Of a stretch of DNA of 64,000 nt, positions 19,447-64,000 are shown in pieces. Location: positions 23,165 to 87,164 of the forward strand of contig ONNQ01000011.1 in the NCBI GenBank assembly GCA_900319245.1, written 5' to 3'. Made by a program: the position numbers and the translations under genes. How positions within the stretch are numbered: position 1 is the stretch's first letter; each line of letters starts with the position of its first letter. This DNA is from an uncultured Lachnospiraceae bacterium (GTDB lineage: Bacteria; Bacillota; Clostridia; Lachnospirales; Lachnospiraceae). Below the pieces are notes generated by a model. That model saw nothing but the letters and a program-made list of their open reading frames with translations. It did not search any database and was not told the DNA's origin.

Positions 19447-19566
19447 TTTTATTTTGTTACCTGCTTGTTATTTTTTCTAAACTAGTTGTATTCCTTCATT
19501 TTTGTGGTGGTTATGCTTTGTTTTTGCCTTGGTTTGTCTTGGTTTGTCTTAACTACCCGCCTTGTT

Positions 19567-19940
19567 TGGGCACAGACGAGAACTTTTCAGATTTAGTTCC
19601 AATTGATTTCTTGCTCTTTTGCTACTTTTAGGTACAGGCTGAGATTTTTCTTCATTCAGCTCCCAATGCCTGCTTCTCTTTCGTGACGTTTGGGCACAGA
19701 AACTCTTTCTCAGAAAAAAGTTCCAAAAAGCTTAGCTTGCTTTGGAGACTATTTCTCGAAAATCCTTGTGTGTACCCAAAACGGCCAGTAGGCCTCCAGA
19801 ATTATGGAGACCATCTTGTCAAAATACATCTTCTGTGCCCAAAATGTCCAAAATCCATTGGAACTTTTTTTAAAAAAATAGCTTCTGTACCCAGTCCATC
19901 TCTATGGCTCCATTTTTAGAAAAAAGAGCTTCTGTACCTA
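19567..19940. repeat. Inverted intergenic repeat array 1 (3 + 4 units, about 62 bp period)
   Basis: In the gap between the MATE gene and the cysteine desulfurase, TGGGCACAG-type boxes start at 19567, 19629 (TAGGTACAG) and 19691, exactly 62 bp apart. They are followed by boxes in the opposite orientation at 19771 (TGTACCCA), 19833 (CTGTGCCCA), 19885 (CTGTACCCA) and 19932 (CTGTACCTA). Each left unit has a second block (TTxAGxTCC) 25-26 bp inside. The design matches the arrays at 58430 and 59813, but the rest of the sequence has diverged. No gene is seen in 19447-20024. Confidence 0.75.
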
Positions 19941-20024
19941 ACAAATCACCAATGCAGCTACCCTCAATAACCAAACCTCTGCTTTTCCCAGTTAAGCCCA
20001 CAGGTCGACCTGCGTTCGCCCGCT

Positions 20025-55989: not shown

Positions 55990-58248
55990 TCATTTCAATA
56001 AACTTGTCAGTTCTCCGTCCGCCAGGATACTCAGTCTCCTGGTTGCTCTCGAAACGGCTGTGTAAAGCCGGTGTCTTGCCATAAGATTGTCCGGATAGGT
56101 CGCCTGGTCCGCATCCGGCAGGATCACGCCGTCAAACTCCAGTCCTTTGACCAGATCCAGCGTGATCAGGAACACGCCGCTGTGCGGAAGCGCCTGATTT
56201 CGGTGAATGACCTCCGGCGCCTCGTCGCCGAGGATCTGCCTGACCTTTTCCAGACTCGCCCGGTTCGCGCAGATCACGGCGGTCAGGCCTTGTTCGTCCT
56301 CCGCATTTGCGCTCGCCGCATGCACCAACAGCCGCAGCCGTCTCGCGTAGTCCTCGCCGGATTCGCACGCCATGACCACCGGCGCGGTGCCCGGCCTCTG
56401 CACGGACGATGTGACGATCCGCTTCTCGCGCGGCAAGAGCCCCGTGAAGATCTCCGTGATCTCGGGCGACGACCGGTAGCTTGTGAGCAGCGGCAGTTCT
56501 TTGGTCTGCCGTCCGTCCTCGCCGAACAGTTCATGGATTTTGGCAAAAGACACGGTCCCCGGCCGGATCGCCTGGAACTCATCGCCCAGCATCATGAACT
56601 TCGCCCTGCCAAAATACCGCCTCAGCACCATCAGCTGCGCCGCCGTATAGTCCTGCACCTCGTCGATCATGACATAGCGCACATTTTTGTCGCCCATGCC
56701 CGTGAGCAGCATCTTGAGCCAGATCCACTCCGCCGACGTCAGTCTCTTCTTGTGCAGAATCCTGCATCCGATCTTCTCAACGTCAATAAAGCCGAAGCGA
56801 TGGATTGTGCTGAACGCGCCGCCGTACTGATTCGTGATCCGGTTCTGCTCTTTCCGGTCCGTCTCTCTCTCGCTCTCTCCCCAGCTTCCGCCTTTGTTCG
56901 CCCCCTGATTTCCGTAGGGGTCCATGCTGTTGAAGGAGGCGGCGCCTTGATTGCCGCCTGCGCCGTCTTCACTTCCGCCCCATGCATCATTGCCATCTGC
57001 GCGGTCGCGGTCGTCGCGCTCCATGCGGCGGATCTTGATTTTGGCAATTTCAGAGAGCTTGTCGGAGAGGATATTGAGGAGGCGCGGGCCTGCCTCGATG
57101 CCGCTCAGTTCCGCCGCCGCATTCAGAATTTCTCTGCGGCTGAGAACACACCGCCCCTTCTGCATGACGGGGCAGATTTCGTCCTCCTGTAGGCGAAGCG
57201 TCTTCAGCGCGCGCTCCATCTTGCGGAGGTCCGCTTCTTTGGCAGATTCGCCCGGGCCCTTGTCCGGCGCGTTCGCAATGTGCAGGAAGTCCCGCCACGT
57301 GATCGTCCGGGGATTCTCCTCGCCCAGGTCCGGCAGCACCTGATCGATGTACTGGCGGAACACCGGGTTGATGGTGAGCAGGTAAACCTGCTCCGGCCGC
57401 AGATTCTCCCTCTGCCGGTAGAACAGGTACGCAATCCTCTGCAGGAGCACCGACGTCTTGCCGCTGCCCGCGATTCCGTTGACCAGAAGAACCGGCACAT
57501 CCTCGCTCCGGATGACCGCATTCTGCTCCTTCTGGATGGTCGCCGTGATCGCCTTCATCTTGTCCGTCCGGCGGCTGGCCAGCGACTGCAGAAGCATCGG
57601 ATCCTCGATCGCCACCTGCGTGTCAAAGAAAGAGAACAACCTGTCCTCCTCCAAATTGTACTGCCTGCGCAGCTGCAGATCCACGTCGACGCGGTTCCCG
57701 TTCACCATGTAGAATGTCTTGCCGTTCTGCTGATTGTAATACGTTTCCGCGATGGGCGACCTCCAGTCGATCACCAGATGCTCATAGGCGTTCTCCGCGA
57801 TGCCGGCGCTGCCGATGTAGTAGTCCTCGGGCGCCTCCTCCGGGTCAAACTGCAGCTTCACCCTGGCAAAATACGGCGCCTTGCGCAGTCTTTTGACCCT
57901 GCCCAGCTTCTCCTGCGCCGCGTCCTGCTCGATATTGTACTGATCGATCGAGTGGCTCATGGCCTCGAACTCGATGTACGTCTCCATCGAATCCGTATCG
58001 CTGTCAAAATTCAGCGACAGATTGCTGCGGATATCCTGCTTCTCCTTGGCCGCTTTCTCATTGATCGCTTCGATCTTCTCTTCCAGCGCAGCCTCCATCG
58101 CGCACAGCTTGCCATGCGTCATGGTCAGATGCGCTTGCTCGCTATTCAGCACGCGCGCCTGCTCGCCATCAAATATCTTGTTTTGTAATGTATCTTGTTC
58201 GTTCTGCAAAGTATTCTGTTCTTTCTTTAATGTACCCTTTTCGTTCAA
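55990..58248 (-). CDS. HelD-like superfamily 1 helicase (RNA polymerase recycling type)
   Basis: 752 residues from TTG 58248 (GGAG 6 bases upstream). N-terminal coiled arm (residues 1-130), starting with EQNTLQN-EQDTLQN, a 7-residue duplication. Then YIGSAGI and VIDWRSPIAETYY, typical of HelD. Walker A NGIAGSGKTSVLLQR lies near 260, DEVQDYTAAQL (motif II) near 530, and PDADQATYPDN in the C-terminal RecA domain. HelD frees stalled RNA polymerase from DNA. Between the domains a Gly/Asn/Ser-rich stretch of about 60 residues (GGNQGAASFNS, GNQGANKGGSWG; DNA about 56820-57010) looks inserted. Confidence 0.9.
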   Translation of the reverse strand: MNEKGTLKKEQNTLQNEQDTLQNKIFDGEQARVLNSEQAHLTMTHGKLCAMEAALEEKIEAINEKAAKEKQDIRSNLSLNFDSDTDSMETYIEFEAMSHSIDQYNIEQDAAQEKLGRVKRLRKAPYFARVKLQFDPEEAPEDYYIGSAGIAENAYEHLVIDWRSPIAETYYNQQNGKTFYMVNGNRVDVDLQLRRQYNLEEDRLFSFFDTQVAIEDPMLLQSLASRRTDKMKAITATIQKEQNAVIRSEDVPVLLVNGIAGSGKTSVLLQRIAYLFYRQRENLRPEQVYLLTINPVFRQYIDQVLPDLGEENPRTITWRDFLHIANAPDKGPGESAKEADLRKMERALKTLRLQEDEICPVMQKGRCVLSRREILNAAAELSGIEAGPRLLNILSDKLSEIAKIKIRRMERDDRDRADGNDAWGGSEDGAGGNQGAASFNSMDPYGNQGANKGGSWGESERETDRKEQNRITNQYGGAFSTIHRFGFIDVEKIGCRILHKKRLTSAEWIWLKMLLTGMGDKNVRYVMIDEVQDYTAAQLMVLRRYFGRAKFMMLGDEFQAIRPGTVSFAKIHELFGEDGRQTKELPLLTSYRSSPEITEIFTGLLPREKRIVTSSVQRPGTAPVVMACESGEDYARRLRLLVHAASANAEDEQGLTAVICANRASLEKVRQILGDEAPEVIHRNQALPHSGVFLITLDLVKGLEFDGVILPDADQATYPDNLMARHRLYTAVSRATRRLSILADGELTSLLK

Positions 58249-58950
58249 ATGTAGCTCCGATTTCTTTTAAGAATTGTTTGAATCGCCACCATAATACTTA
58301 AGTATACTATAAAAATGCAAGGCGAGGGTTGCTTGTAGCCCATTTTTGATCTATTACCTCTGTATGTCTTTGATTCTTCTTTATGATTACTACTTCTGTA
58401 GGAACTTGCTCCTTCTTCCGTGCTGCGATTGGGCACACGTGAGCTTTTCGCTTGATTTGTTCCCCTTAGACTTTCGCTCGATTTGAAGTGTCTGGGCACA
58501 CGACCTGCTTTCTCTTAATTTGTTCCCCACGGCTTTTCGCTCGGTTGGAGGCTTTTGGGCACACGAGATGGTTTGTTTGATTTGTTCTCCTTGAAATCTG
58601 AAGATGAAGGAGTCTCAATTCTAAAAAACAATCCCTGTACCCAATCATCACAGATGCACCAAATATCCAGGGAGAACAATTCTGAGAAATCCTTCCCTGT
58701 GCCCAAAGACCAGAAAACGCGCGAAAGCCCGTGGGGTACAAATCAAGCAAAACCTCATCCTGTGCCCAATACCGCATCAAACAAGAAAATAACAAGTCCG
58801 TTCGTCTTGCCGCATTCTCCATATCGCTATATTATTTTTGAACAGTCCATTCAACCAATGGCTCTCGCCGCATTCAACCGGCACCATTCGGAACGGACTG
58901 CTACTAGATTCTAATTTCATTTCTATCTCCACTCGGAGGAAAGGAGTCCT
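58249..58950. other. Non-coding region upstream of the nuclease-like gene
   Basis: 702 bases with no convincing gene. It contains repeat array 2 (58430-58768) and then about 180 AT-rich bases that must carry the promoter of the gene at 58951. Short open frames here follow the repeat units and are not considered genes. Confidence 0.6.
58430..58768. repeat. Inverted intergenic repeat array 2 (3 + 3 units, 62-63 bp)
   Basis: TGGGCACAC starts at 58430, 58493 and 58556 (period 63), each with TTTGTTC(C/T)CC 25-26 bp inside. Reverse-orientation boxes CTGTACCCA/CTGTGCCCA begin at 58635, 58697 and 58760 (62 and 63 bp), with GG(A/G)GAACAA at the matching distance. Almost the entire stretch recurs at 59813-60152 with a constant offset of 1,383-1,384 bp. 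Transcripts would self-pair mainly through the conserved blocks. Confidence 0.85.
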
Positions 58951-59787
58951 ATGACATTACAAAGCATAATTGAAGACATGAGAGAATCTTTGATTCAGGA
59001 AAAGCGCAAACTGGAAACTCTTCTTCGAGAAGCGCCGATCGGCAAACTCATCTACAGCAAAAACACGGCCAATGGAAAAACCTACTACAAATGGTATGTT
59101 TCCGTGACTGATCAAGAAGGCAGAAGGAAAAAGATCTACATTTCCCGCAAGAACAGAAATCTTGCAAAAGAGCTTGCTCGAAAAAGACTACGCACCAAAC
59201 GTCACCAGGATATCATCTGTCAGTTGAAAGCAATGGATGCTTTTTTGGCCAAAAACAAGCAGAATTCTGCTCTCAATGATCTTCTCAATACGCCTCTGCT
59301 AGTTAATCTTCTAGAAGAAGATGAACCCAATCCTTCTGCAGAATTATCGGAAGAATTGAAAAAATGGGCCCAGGAAGAATACGAAACCAATCCTGCCTTC
59401 CCAGAAGGTAGAAATGTTCAGACTGTCGATAATATCAAGGTGCGCTCAAAATCTGAAGCTCTCATCGTGATGCTTCTCTCTACGATGAATATCCCCTATC
59501 GCTATGAATGCAAGCTAGAAATTGGAGGCCATGTCTATTATCCTGACTTTACAATCCGCCATCCTATAACTGGGCAAATCTATTATTGGGAACACGTTGG
59601 AGGACTTCATATGCAGGAATATCGTTCTGATTTTCTCCAGAAGTTGCGCGTTTACATCAATAACGGGATTATTCCTGATTACAACTTAATTATGACGTTT
59701 GAAAGTGAAGGCCATCCTTTTGATATAACGATTGCGCGGGACAAAATCAGGGAATTCTTTTCTTGTGAAGTTGGCGCATTGTATTGA
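58951..59787 (+). CDS. Predicted PD-(D/E)XK nuclease-like protein
   Basis: 278 residues; GGAGG and AAAGGAG precede ATG 58951. The first 105 residues are helical and basic, with an inner segment GKTYYKWYVSVTDQEGRRKKIYIS that looks like a small beta unit. Residues about 165-240 look like a PD-(D/E)XK core: VRSKSEALIVMLLSTMNIPYRYECKL, GHVYYPDFTI with the Asp, and IYYWEHVGG with the Glu, although the usual Lys after the Glu is replaced (EHVG). It may be an active or degenerate nuclease fold. The codons are more A/T-rich than neighbouring genes, and the gene sits between two near-identical repeat arrays, which suggests horizontal origin or a mobile module. Confidence 0.72.
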   Translation: MTLQSIIEDMRESLIQEKRKLETLLREAPIGKLIYSKNTANGKTYYKWYVSVTDQEGRRKKIYISRKNRNLAKELARKRLRTKRHQDIICQLKAMDAFLAKNKQNSALNDLLNTPLLVNLLEEDEPNPSAELSEELKKWAQEEYETNPAFPEGRNVQTVDNIKVRSKSEALIVMLLSTMNIPYRYECKLEIGGHVYYPDFTIRHPITGQIYYWEHVGGLHMQEYRSDFLQKLRVYINNGIIPDYNLIMTFESEGHPFDITIARDKIREFFSCEVGALY

Positions 59788-59812
59788 TTTGGTACTTTCA
59801 TACTAGGGCGAT

Positions 59813-60152
59813 TGGGCACACGTGAGCTTTTCGCTTGATTTGTTCCCCTTAGGTTTTCACTCAATTTGAAGCGTTTGGGCACACGACCAGCTTTCTCTTA
59901 ATTTGTTCCCAACGAATTTTCGCTCAGTTTAAGGCGTTTGGGCACACGAGATGGTTTTGTTTGATTTGTTCTCCTTGAGAGCTGAAGATGAAGGAGTCTC
60001 AATTCAAAAAAGAAGTCCCTGTGCCCAATCTACACAGATGCACCAAATATCCATGGGGAACAATTCTGAAAAATCCTTCTCTGTGCCCAATCAGCACAGA
60101 TGCACCAAACATCCATGGAGAACAATACCGAGAAATTCCCCACCTGTGCCCA
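59813..60152. repeat. Inverted intergenic repeat array 3 (3 + 3 units, direct copy of array 2)
   Basis: TGGGCACAC at 59813, 59876 and 59939 (period 63) and CTGTGCCCA at 60019, 60081 and 60144 (62 and 63 bp). TTTGTTCCCC lies 26 bp inside the first unit. The order, spacing and most bases match array 2; the six boxes are all displaced by 1,383 or 1,384 bp, so the copies differ by one net indel. It ends about 60 bp before the MocR-type operator palindrome. Confidence 0.85.
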
Positions 60153-60212
60153 ATCTCTCAAAACGCTTTTTCACTAGCCATGCGAATAGCGCGTTTGATC
60201 ATATCGATTTTC

Positions 60213-60270: not shown

Positions 60271-61548
60271 ATGCCCCAATACAACATAGATCCCGGGCTG
60301 AAGCAGCCCGCCTACCTGCAGCTTTATCACCAAATCCGTGACGATATCACGAGCGGTGTCTGCCCCTACGACATGAAGCTTCCTTCCAAACGATTTCTGG
60401 CCGCAGAAACCGGCACCAGCGTGATCACGGTCCAGCATGCATATGATCTTCTGGCCGATGAGGGGTATATTAGGTCCCGCGAGCGCAGCGGCTATTATGT
60501 CAGCTACAGAGAAAATGAGTTGTTTCCGGTGGCGCCCGCCTTTTCCGCATCCCCAAGTGCAGCCCATATTCCCGGCGCCACCCCTAATGCGCCTGATCAT
60601 AGCTCCAATATCCATGAAATCTCCGCACACCACGACTCATCCAGCCTCCATGGCAGTTCCAGCCTCCACGGTATTTCCGACCTCCACGGTAATTCCAGCC
60701 TCCATGGTAGTTCCGACCTCCACGAGCTCTCCGACATCCCGATCCGCGGTCCCATTCTGACGCCGGAACAGGAGCAGTTTCCATTCTCGGTGCTTGCCAA
60801 AACAGCGCGCAGGGTTTTGACAGAGCATGGAGAAAAGCTTCTGCAGCGATCGCCTAACAGCGGCACAATGTTTCTGCGCGAGGCTATCGCCCAGTATCTG
60901 GCAAGAAGCCGCCGGATCATTGTTTCGCCCGAGCAGATCGTCATCGGTTCCGGTTCCGAGTATCTCTACAATCTGATCGTACAGATGCTGGGGAGGGAGC
61001 GGACTTTCGCGCTGGAGGATCCGTCCTATGAGAAGATCCGGCTTGTCTACGAGGCGAGCGGCGTGCAGTGCGAGATGCTGCCCATGGACCGGGAGGGCGT
61101 CAAGCTCAGTGCGCTGCACAAGACTTCCGCATCGGTCCTTCACGTCACGCCCTTCAACAGTTATCCCAGCGGGATCACGGCTTCGGCCTCCCGCCGCGCG
61201 GGGTACATCCGATGGGCGTCCAAGGAGAATCGGTTTATTATTGAAGATGATTTTGACTCCGAGTTTTCCATGTCGACCAAAGCCGAAGACACGCTCTTCT
61301 CCCTGGAGCCGCAGCGGAGCGTCATCTACATGAACACCTTCACGCGCACGATCTCGCCCGCCGTCCGCGTGGGCTACATGGTTCTGCCCGCGCAGCTCAG
61401 CGCCGCAATGCAGGATACCATCTCCTTTTATTCCTGCACGGTCCCCGTTTTCACGCAGCACCTGCTCGCGGAGGTCATTCGGAGCGGCGACTTCGAGCGC
61501 CACATCAACCGCGTGCGCCGCAGACGCCGCCAGGCCGCCGACCAGTGA
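60271..61548 (+). CDS. MocR/GntR-type PLP-fold regulator, truncated and lacking the PLP lysine
   Basis: 425 residues from ATG 60271 (AAGGAGG 5 bases upstream). Residues 1-75 are a GntR winged helix (YHQIRDDITSG, LPSKRFLA, RSGYYVSY). The rest is an aminotransferase-like domain: QIVIGSGSEYLYNLIVQM, TPFNSYPSG and IIEDDFDSEF. The cofactor Lys (TFSKT in relatives) is Arg 359 in NTFTRTISP, codon CGC at 61345. The chain ends at HINRVRRRRRQAADQ, about 80 residues short of the usual length, so the C-terminal subdomain is missing. Between the two domains there are five 18-bp units (60643-60732) coding (S/D)LHG(S/N)S-type hexapeptides. It may be a PLP-independent repressor or a decaying gene. Confidence 0.8.
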   Translation: MPQYNIDPGLKQPAYLQLYHQIRDDITSGVCPYDMKLPSKRFLAAETGTSVITVQHAYDLLADEGYIRSRERSGYYVSYRENELFPVAPAFSASPSAAHIPGATPNAPDHSSNIHEISAHHDSSSLHGSSSLHGISDLHGNSSLHGSSDLHELSDIPIRGPILTPEQEQFPFSVLAKTARRVLTEHGEKLLQRSPNSGTMFLREAIAQYLARSRRIIVSPEQIVIGSGSEYLYNLIVQMLGRERTFALEDPSYEKIRLVYEASGVQCEMLPMDREGVKLSALHKTSASVLHVTPFNSYPSGITASASRRAGYIRWASKENRFIIEDDFDSEFSMSTKAEDTLFSLEPQRSVIYMNTFTRTISPAVRVGYMVLPAQLSAAMQDTISFYSCTVPVFTQHLLAEVIRSGDFERHINRVRRRRRQAADQ

Positions 61549-62677: not shown

Positions 62678-64000
62678 TTATCTCTTTACTGTCGTCGCCT
62701 TCGCAGCGCTCCATGAAGAATAGTAATTTACCTTGCTCACAGTCTTATATGTACGGATTCGTACGTAATATTTCTTTCCGCCGGTGAGCTTTGTGATCGT
62801 CTTGGAGGTTGCGGATGCTCCTTTCACGGTTACGGTCTTTTTGTTCTTGGTGAACTTGCTGTCTGTCGCATACTGGATCTGGTATCCTGTCGTCTGCGTC
62901 GCCTGCTTCTTCCACTTGACTGTCATCTTTTTGGAAGCCGGTGTCAGCGAAACCAGCGCTGTTCCCTTGGGGTTGATCTTGAAGGAAACCGTCTTGGTGC
63001 CGGAGTAGTTCCCCTTCATTGTGACAGTGATCTTGTATGCGCCCGGATTCTTTCGTCCGCTTGAATACGTTACCGTGTAGTTGGACGCAGCCAGTTTCGT
63101 ACTTCCATTCTTCACCGTGACGGCAGGTTTTCTGACTTTACCATTATAGACAAATGCGGTCGGAGACAGCGTGACTGCCGGCGTGATCGTCTTAGGAGCA
63201 ATCTTGTATTTTTTGGACGCCATTCCGCTGTAGCTGCCCTTCAGATCTACAGTCACTCTATACATGCCGGCATTGATGCTGGTTTCCGGCCATGTCACGG
63301 TATAATCTTTACCTTCCGTAAGCGTCGTCTCGCCGTCTTTCACAGTTACAACAGGCATCTGTGTTTTGCCGGAGTAGGTGAAAGTGGACTGGGAGAAAAT
63401 AATGGTCGGTATAATCTCATGAACTACCGCTGCGCTATACCAGCCGGGGGCGCTGCCGTCGTAGTCGGAAAGGTTTGCATAAGTCGGTGCATTCGCAGAC
63501 GCTCCATCCAGCGTTGAATACCTCGTCCAGTTTCCGTTAGGCGGGTTCTGGGTGAAGATCGACTTTTCGCCCAGTGCAAGGGTATCAAGCTTATTGACCC
63601 GGCTGAATATGCTTTTCATACTGACTACATTTTCTGTGTTAAAACTGCTTACATTCAGCTTTTTCAATTCCGTGCAGACACTGAACATGGAATTCATATT
63701 CGTTACGTTCGATGTGTCAAAGTTTGAAAGGTCAAGTTCTGTCATAATATCGCAGCCGCTAAACATGCTGTTCATATTTGTTACATTTTCTGTATTAAAA
63801 TTACTGACGTTGAGTTCTGCCAGTTTACTGCAGCTCATAAACATGCTTTCCATATCTGTTACTTTCGATGTATCAAAACCCGAAACATCAAGTTCTGTCA
63901 GATTATTGCACCATGTGAACATAGAACTCATGTCCGTCACTTTCGATGTATCAAAGCCCGAAAGATCAAGTCCGGTCAGCTGATCGCACTTGCAGAACAT
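62678..64000 (-). CDS. BspA-like surface protein with DUF285 repeats, Ig-like and Fn3-like domains (partial, N-terminus outside window)
   Basis: 440 residues are visible; the Met at 64000 is probably internal. It starts with at least five 26-residue BspA/DUF285 repeats (LTxLDxSxFDTSKVTDMxSMF), a leucine-rich-repeat-like surface fold in gut bacteria. After an 80-residue linker come two similar MBG/Ig-like domains of about 80 residues (TFTYSGKTQMPVVTVKDG; AFVYNGKVRKPAVTVKNG), then a Fn3-like domain (VSLTPASKKMTVKW, YYVRIRTY) to the end. No LPxTG or membrane anchor at the C-terminus. Probably a secreted or non-covalently attached adhesin. Confidence 0.9.
   Translation of the reverse strand: MFCKCDQLTGLDLSGFDTSKVTDMSSMFTWCNNLTELDVSGFDTSKVTDMESMFMSCSKLAELNVSNFNTENVTNMNSMFSGCDIMTELDLSNFDTSNVTNMNSMFSVCTELKKLNVSSFNTENVVSMKSIFSRVNKLDTLALGEKSIFTQNPPNGNWTRYSTLDGASANAPTYANLSDYDGSAPGWYSAAVVHEIIPTIIFSQSTFTYSGKTQMPVVTVKDGETTLTEGKDYTVTWPETSINAGMYRVTVDLKGSYSGMASKKYKIAPKTITPAVTLSPTAFVYNGKVRKPAVTVKNGSTKLAASNYTVTYSSGRKNPGAYKITVTMKGNYSGTKTVSFKINPKGTALVSLTPASKKMTVKWKKQATQTTGYQIQYATDSKFTKNKKTVTVKGASATSKTITKLTGGKKYYVRIRTYKTVSKVNYYSSWSAAKATTVKR

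Follow-up and report, generated by a model that had tools for sequence, protein, structure and literature searches.

This study concerns a gene for a small putative nuclease that lies between two arrays of short repeated boxes in a stretch of 64,000 nucleotides from an uncultured Lachnospiraceae bacterium (assembly GCA_900319245.1, contig ONNQ01000011.1, positions 23,165 to 87,164 of the forward strand), referred to here as the window. The first array, array U, extends from 58425 to 58770 and the second, collinear array, array D, from 59808 to 60154, both without an assigned strand. The gene of 278 residues is located between them on the plus strand (58951–59787) and is the only long open reading frame (ORF) there, in agreement with a preliminary description of this DNA, which had seen no transposase in the unit. 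The two six-box arrays framing the gene, reported in the same description with offsets of 1383 and 1384 bp, were confirmed: they are direct copies with 91% identity in the left part (offset 1383), 79% in the right part (offset 1384) and 85% over the whole array. As had also been stated, the gene is richer in A/T than its neighbours, with a G+C content of 0.409 as opposed to 0.587 for the helicase-like gene on its left, 0.585 for the MocR-like gene on its right and 0.536 for the window. A Shine-Dalgarno-like GGAGGAAAGGAG can be read in the sequence 5' of the ATG (58935–58946, plus strand), and the stretch just 5' of the start also matches paralogues of 49–56% identity.

Each array contains six copies of an A-box (TTGGGCACA or one change), three on the plus strand followed by three on the minus strand. 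In array U they are found at 58429, 58492 and 58555 (plus) and at 58636, 58698 and 58761 (minus), with a spacing of 62–63 bp per half, and in array D at 59812, 59875 and 59938 (plus) and at 60020, 60082 and 60145 (minus). Ten of these 12 A-boxes are followed by a B-box (TTGTTCCCC, one mismatch allowed). Each array therefore consists of 3+3 units pointing inwards and forms an inverted repeat with the A-boxes outermost; the ten A-B units of the window all lie in arrays U and D, compared with 0.04 expected in a first-order Markov sequence. For a broader view of the unit, 110 units of window-type arrays were anchored on the A-box alone, where the conservation of the A-box is given by construction. 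The B-box in these units reaches 1.38 bits per column, occurs in 72 of the 110 if one mismatch is allowed and mostly starts 27–28 nt after the A-box, both boxes being 9 bp long, and a T-tract between the two is conserved with up to 1.29 bits. Orientation was scored in 21 chosen arrays of the window type, of which 19 run strictly forward-then-reverse, one is one-sided at that stringency and one is mixed.

At E ≤ 1e-10, at least 84 of 392 genomes from the order have relatives of the protein, and a single genome can have up to six or seven of them among the matches listed; about six candidates per genome were scored, so that these counts are lower bounds. Butyrivibrio, Pseudobutyrivibrio, Eubacterium, Treponema and a metagenome-assembled genome (MAG) of Fibrobacter are represented among the best 80 of 563 named records. 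An array was counted as near the gene if a self-repeat of at least 80 bp was present within 800 bp, and control windows were placed at least 1600 bp away. After identical cores had been dropped, 131 loci were available, near-identical rows remaining among them, and 120 of these had both flanks of at least 400 bp. Self-repeat arrays lie near the gene in 90 of the 120 family loci as opposed to 20 of 263 control windows (Fisher test per window, p = 6e-27), upstream in 69 and downstream in 49, with 28 loci carrying arrays on both sides and 62 on one side only. A control restricted to the intergenic gaps of the 80 named loci gave repeats in 54 of 103 near gaps and in 12 of 79 far gaps (p = 2e-7). 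The box sequences differ between the lineages of the family. No recurrent neighbour gene was found (largest cluster 6 of 80 loci, L039–L118 in our numbering, considering ORFs of at least 150 aa within 3 kb), and the transposase in or beside the element that would mark an insertion sequence or a Tn7-type element was likewise not found, there being no recurrent neighbour in the 80 loci. A phylum-wide tree of the window protein and 75 of the 80 named loci (76 rows, quick method) had less than 80% support on 35 of its 73 inner branches; a claim of horizontal transfer based on this tree was dropped, as the branch support was too weak.

The association extends to the box sequences themselves. Across 61 genomes of the genus, named here by our own handles, the exact pair TGGGCACA-N16-19-TTGTTCCCC occurs in five, namely G000 (17), G024 (13 exact units genome-wide) and G013, G032 and G035 (5 each), and a backward control pattern of the pair occurs in none of the 61. 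A type-1 nuclease (63–76% identical), defined as at least 63% identical by a cut chosen after the matches had been seen, is encoded in the same five genomes and in G436 and G451. The exact pair is thus present in five of the seven genomes with a type-1 nuclease and in none of the 54 others (p = 3.5e-6, a statistic that ignores shared ancestry), and it is also found as solitary arrays without the gene. Both the type-1 nuclease and the exact pair are missing from G445, which has the MocR most like that of the window (89%), and from G003, which is 82–97% identical to the carriers in its DNA at the compared sites. At the helicase/MocR site of G445 a nuclease of about 50% identity is accompanied on both sides by TTTAGGTA..TCTCCAAC boxes, and other paralogues of 48–56% identity have different recurrent words, or few. 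The mean shared fraction of recurrent 8-mers is 0.002–0.026 below 70% protein identity, 0.27 at 70–90% (12 pairs) and 0.69 above 90% (11 pairs), some of the close pairs sharing a site by descent. Statistically, the gene and the arrays form one system. In G035, a second, frameshifted type-1 copy (L035, contig G035:C17) with boxes on both sides lies beside a helicase gene, and an apparently intact type-1 copy lies beside a MocR gene on another contig.

The spacing of the units is equally regular. Array periods cluster at 52–54, 61–65, 71–75 and 84–86 bp, and when the smallest TRF period of 40–135 bp was taken, one per locus, the period differed by no more than 2 bp from a multiple of 10.5 bp in 57 of 61 loci (expected fraction 0.44), with a Rayleigh peak at 10.5 and R of 0.71. 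A non-redundant set, with one period of 50–90 bp per locus from 52 loci reduced to 41 by the removal of shared repeats, gave 40 of 41 within the same tolerance. An inverted pair of 9-mers (at least 8 of 9 positions) is found in 23 of the 41 array consensuses, compared with 6.4% of shuffles. Because the array periods correspond to whole turns of 10.5 bp, their simplest meaning would be a protein bound repeatedly along one face of double-stranded DNA, and the distribution of the boxes together with this phasing suggests that the bound protein is the nuclease itself.

The same regularity bears on a nuclease-RNA module, one of the possibilities raised in the preliminary description, in which RNAs made by processing of array transcripts would guide or regulate the nuclease. 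Units of dyad boxes with variable stretches beside a nuclease would suit such a module, as would the arrays that run one way in several other lineages of the family. We nevertheless consider it highly improbable, mainly because of the helical phasing, as an RNA has no reason to follow the 10.5-bp turn of double-stranded DNA. In addition, 19 of the 21 scored window-type arrays turn from forward to reverse instead of running one way, and an Rfam scan found no family in the arrays (one tRNA only). With no Rfam match in the arrays and no effector family for the protein, the locus does not appear to be a CRISPR or other RNA-guided system.

The protein itself has no Pfam match at E ≤ 1 and no NCBIfam match. 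Filing it under a known family was also attempted with its relatives and with PDB sequences and was rejected, as no match was credible and the weak ones fell short of the curated cut-offs or were uninformative. The C-terminal 120 residues of the protein are homologous to the C-terminal end of PDC-S68 (E 4.7e-26), as they are in all 26 members of an alignment drawn from the 30 gene loci L009–L038 (L022, L030, L032 and L035 left out). Weaker matches were obtained with the PADLOC model HEAT_CxxC_PDDEXK (E 5.9e-5; 22 of 26 members) and a PHROG endonuclease (E 5.3e-4; 7 of 26 members). The nuclease core comprises residues 161–251 (59431–59703, plus strand), with V164, R165, S166, K167, E169, Y185, E186, P198, D199, E214, H215 and G217 invariant in 26 of 26 members. 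The conserved acidic/PD/E pattern is thus present (E169, P198 D199, E214) alongside homology to models of the PD-(D/E)XK superfamily, with the usual lysine away from its usual place after E214, where EH.G is found instead. P198, D199 and E214 are putative active-site residues, and their conservation suggests that the protein cuts DNA. An AlphaFold2 model of the whole protein (predicted local distance difference test, pLDDT, 85.9; predicted template modelling score, pTM, 0.53) gave weak Foldseek matches against the PDB, the best being SSO0001 (E 0.011) and none reaching 0.001; DrdV, R2, Cdn1 and MunI were also among them, and all five are enzymes with the PD-(D/E)XK fold. Taken together, the PADLOC, PHROG and weak Foldseek matches give moderate support to the PD-(D/E)XK assignment that the preliminary description had read from the sequence.

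The N-terminal part (residues 20–96, 59008–59238, plus strand) is predicted as beta-beta-beta-alpha and, modelled alone, reaches a pLDDT of 91.3 with no match among PDB structures (best E 0.09). Because this model is well folded and without a counterpart in the PDB, the region is put forward only as a candidate for DNA binding. Among five orthologues, the ratio of nonsynonymous to synonymous substitution rates (dN/dS) is 0.06–0.12 in nine of ten pairs and 0.27 in the tenth, which is 99.8% identical; for the four comparisons that involve G000, dS values above 1.8 make the ratios rough, which weakens this part of the argument. Judging from these ratios, the gene is maintained under purifying selection. 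A viral origin was considered and rejected: nine viral contigs (L220–L228) match the C-terminal part, but no small stand-alone copy is among them, seven of the matches lying inside open frames of 1114–1173 aa and the others in frames of 747 and 1016 aa. Three of the nine have repeats within 800 bp downstream.

The match to PDC-S68, a candidate for phage defence, in all 26 members is also the starting point for a reading as anti-phage defence or self-immunity, in which the nuclease would attack foreign DNA and the arrays would be regulators, decoys or self markers. A multicopy family and site contents that turn over between genomes would be in keeping with this. However, PDC-S68 is only a predicted system of which a single domain, out of about 1200 aa, is shared, the commonest neighbour cluster at the family genes comprises 6 of 80 loci, and the dispersal of the arrays is left unexplained, which makes defence an improbable role.

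Whether the element moves was assessed by comparing matched sites between relatives. Site 1 corresponds to the helicase/MocR site of the window and was classed only for genomes closely matching both neighbour genes (G007, rearranged, and G024 and G035, with the neighbours on separate contigs, were left out). G000, G445, G013, G032, G436, G451 and G003 have 1843–2443 bp between the anchors and a nuclease, and G435, G444, G022 and G447 have 486–579 bp and no nuclease. Three types of nuclease occupy this site, the window type, the G445 type and, in the other five genomes, a type 2 of 56% identity. At site 2, between genes that we take from their sequences to be YgiQ and YfcE, a type-1 cassette of 2220–2285 bp is present in G013, G032, G436 and G451, with near-identical boxes on both sides of these four orthologues, and the site is without a cassette in G003 (307 bp), G000 (425 bp), G445 (438 bp) and G444 (620 bp). 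The mobile cassette considered in the preliminary description is supported by the recurrence of the array-gene-array unit in these four genomes and by the cassette-free sites of their relatives, and the arrays may, as also suggested there, be its recombination ends; of the signs of mobility it had proposed to look for, empty sites were found at sites 1 and 2 and a clear target duplication was not. In G435, the YgiQ and YfcE anchors are 3258 bp apart (L217, G435:C12:162000-167600).

Solitary arrays differ between relatives in the same manner. One of about 410 bp is present in G032 and G013, whereas G003 and G451 have 12 bp in its place and the flanks abut in G436, and a second of about 495 bp is present in G013 and also in G032, with about 45 bp instead in G003 and G451; the flanks of these two arrays are 82–95% identical. 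The 14 solitary arrays examined are intergenic, four of them being overlapped by small ORFs of 123–194 aa. At the intergenic site of the second of these arrays, G436 has, by eye, an array with other boxes (TTAGGTACAG) where G013 and G032 have a TTGGGCACA array and G003 and G451 have none (L212, G436:C86). A solitary-array locus of G000 (L002) likewise has matches in relatives. A separate dispersed repeat of about 45–55 bp (L177, 1402–1450, G013:C65) recurs in several places in relatives, including G003 without a type-1 nuclease.

Based on these results, we read the window feature as one copy of a two-part element that works in the manner of a REPtron but is built on an unrelated nuclease, a reading to which we give about as much credence as doubt. 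The first part would be a single-gene PD-(D/E)XK-like endonuclease and the second its own array of short boxes, often with an inverted box pair per unit and spaced by whole turns of double-stranded DNA, which would sit beside the gene and also be scattered alone through the genome. The protein would occupy its cognate boxes in an ordered row along one side of the helix. Breaks made by its nuclease domain would then allow break repair and homologous recombination to copy or exchange the arrays and, on occasion, the complete array-gene-array cassette. While the presence and absence of arrays and cassettes are observed directly, cutting as the force behind their spread is conjectural. More tentatively still, the family may represent an undescribed class of mobile element, in which a one-gene PD-(D/E)XK nuclease recognises its own phased arrays of dyad boxes and drives their dispersal, with the box specificity shifting as the proteins diverge. 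It would be a counterpart of RAYT/REP acting on double-stranded DNA and evolved independently. The class would be common in gut and rumen Lachnospiraceae and would extend, going by the best 80 of the 563 records, to Treponema and a Fibrobacter MAG.

A number of observations weigh against this reading, the first of them concerning the bond between gene and array. A general array-gene-array rule is not supported, since 30 of the 120 family loci lack an array, just 28 are flanked by one on each side, and some arrays have no gene next to them; two of the 30 array-less loci share a repeat between their two flanks. If only gaps of at least 300 bp are considered, the enrichment becomes modest (46 of 84 near and 8 of 30 far, p = 0.010). 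G436 and G451 encode a type-1 nuclease but have no exact box pair, the boxes of their cassettes being one change off, and they carry neither of the two tested solitary arrays. In G024, the approximately 370 bp available upstream of the gene contain one exact and one changed A-box and no A-B unit, and the type-2 loci at site 1 have weak arrays or none. The separation of box types is also imperfect: the TTTAGGTA..TCTCCAAC pattern of G445 (5 units) is found in G000 (2) and G007 (1) as well, and G445 itself has array-like matches 67–79% identical to type-1 arrays, plus related TTTAGGTACA boxes. A paralogue of 49% identity (L034, G003:C68; L197, G032:C29) has TTGGGCACA A-boxes on both sides with a different second box and no exact A-B pair, so that the B-box may evolve faster than the A-box. 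With regard to phasing, arrays far from the gene are phased as well (9 of 12), being either solitary arrays of the same kind or a sign that proximity to the gene is irrelevant to phasing. A cruder phasing test on k-mer lags (48 clusters, many of them weak) gave an R of 0.42 (p = 2e-4) with a best period of 10.25, and the distances between inverted boxes in the array consensuses are not significantly phased (p = 0.12).

The remaining points concern the movement of the arrays, and two further explanations draw on them. No clear target-site duplication was seen where junctions could be aligned with empty sites. The paired arrays of one cassette are 0.78–0.86 identical as opposed to 0.54–0.63 when cassette arrays of G000 are compared with cassette arrays of G013, G032 and G451, which suggests gene conversion or renewed duplication and would also fit an origin of solitary arrays comparable to that of solo long terminal repeats (LTRs). 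A cassette that moves solely by homologous recombination of its flanks, leaving solitary arrays as solo-LTR-like remnants of gene deletion and the nuclease uninvolved, would produce this likeness. One solitary array of G013/G032 indeed shares 0.65–0.71 identity with the cassette arrays found in its group, and at site 2 of G451 a G032-like cassette lies, by eye, within outer flanks like those of G003, as flank recombination would give. Passive movement of this kind is nonetheless unlikely in our view, for most of the compared solitary arrays are no closer to cassette arrays than to each other, and neither the box pair tracking the nuclease type nor the phasing would be explained by it.

Outside orthologous pairs, the solitary arrays are mutually only 0.53–0.67 identical, and because of this most of them are not recent copies of one another but old or independently built. 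Conserved boxes within such diverged arrays are what would be expected if the protein served the host, as a domesticated DNA-binding protein of nuclease fold whose arrays are operators or chromosome-organising sites, dispersed long ago and with boxes kept by selection. The intergenic position of the examined solitary arrays and the dN/dS of about 0.06–0.12 would be in accordance with such a role, and helical phasing suits cooperative binding without cutting. On the other hand, relatives differ in which whole cassettes and arrays they carry, the same site is occupied by different array or nuclease types, and none of the 26 aligned members departs from the putative active-site residues P198, D199 and E214. 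A host-serving protein is therefore a doubtful explanation, though one to be taken seriously.

The insertion site in the window is bordered on the left by a gene on the minus strand (55990–58248) and on the right by a gene on the plus strand (60271–61548), which we take from their sequences to be a UvrD-like helicase and a MocR/GntR-like regulator, respectively. The MocR-like gene contains in-frame repeats of 18 bp at 60640–60711, and the MocR matches of several relatives are split in two around there. A solitary array of the window box family, named array 1 in the preliminary description, does exist at 19566–19941 (no assigned strand). It is intergenic, between two ORFs on the minus strand, has no nuclease gene and is looser in its boxes, with TTGGGCACA/TTAGGTACA A-boxes at a 62-bp spacing. 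An ORF on the minus strand that runs to the end of the window (62678–64000) consists in part of repeated LDLSGFDTSKVTDM-type units, presumably of a surface-protein repeat type.

A description of the nuclease family together with its arrays was not found in searches of the open-access PMC literature. Several known systems resemble the element in part. PDC-S68 of PADLOC has a homologous C-terminal nuclease domain, but it comprises about 1200 aa as opposed to 278 aa here, and it is not known to include arrays. In Tn7-type elements, TnsA acts with end repeats that are bound by TnsB, and this pairing of a PD-(D/E)XK-type nuclease with an ordered series of binding sites at the element ends may be regarded as analogous. 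Unlike in Tn7-type elements, no recurrent neighbour gene in the 80 loci qualifies as a possible TnsB, and whole arrays occur alone. Miniature inverted-repeat transposable elements (MITEs) and solo repeat elements are also short, non-coding inverted repeats that are present or absent at matched sites; the arrays differ from them in that each arm is made up of several tandem units, that target duplication was not clearly seen and that the arrayed nuclease has no recurrent neighbour gene, a comparison that did not extend to parent transposases elsewhere in the genomes. Free-standing homing endonucleases of the PD-(D/E)XK type, which cleave the empty allele where they insert, share with the element a stand-alone gene, occupied and empty sites and the exchange of flanks. 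However, the element carries box arrays, has solitary arrays elsewhere and places one nuclease type at different sites between genomes.

The closest counterpart by logic is the REPtron, in which a tnpA-REP (RAYT) gene is accompanied by its cognate palindromic repeats (repetitive extragenic palindromic, REP, sequences, BIMEs and REPINs), both beside the gene and dispersed, according to published accounts (PMC8266576, PMC3116915). The window element likewise has cognate repeats, some next to the gene and others scattered between genes, as well as tandem clusters of inverted pairs, a repeat type that matches the enzyme type and an enzyme whose presence correlates with the repeats. If our reading is correct, the arrangement known from RAYT/REP, in which a nuclease is matched to dispersed palindromic repeats of its own, would have arisen a second time from an unrelated enzyme, which would account for the repeat arrays beside many family genes in Lachnospiraceae. 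The many natural pairs of protein and box would then reveal how a compact nuclease family changes its DNA specificity, and with matched sets of arrays and proteins the question of how REP-like repeats spread becomes directly testable. The differences are no less distinct. The enzyme of REPtrons is a Y1 HUH transposase that cleaves its repeat in single-stranded form, whereas the window protein has no Pfam match at E ≤ 1 and matches endonuclease and PD-(D/E)XK models; their repeat is a GTAG-led palindrome of 20–50 nt, as opposed to 9-bp boxes with no conserved run of GTAG columns in 110 units; and the units of the window family are phased to the double helix. Furthermore, evidence that tnpA-REP is mobile is stated to be lacking (PMC8266576), whereas the gene cassette of the window family is itself present or absent at matched sites. 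Because both the HUH enzyme and the GTAG-led palindrome are lacking, the element is closest to the REPtrons by its logic, yet it is not a member: its manner of working has a precedent, and its parts do not.

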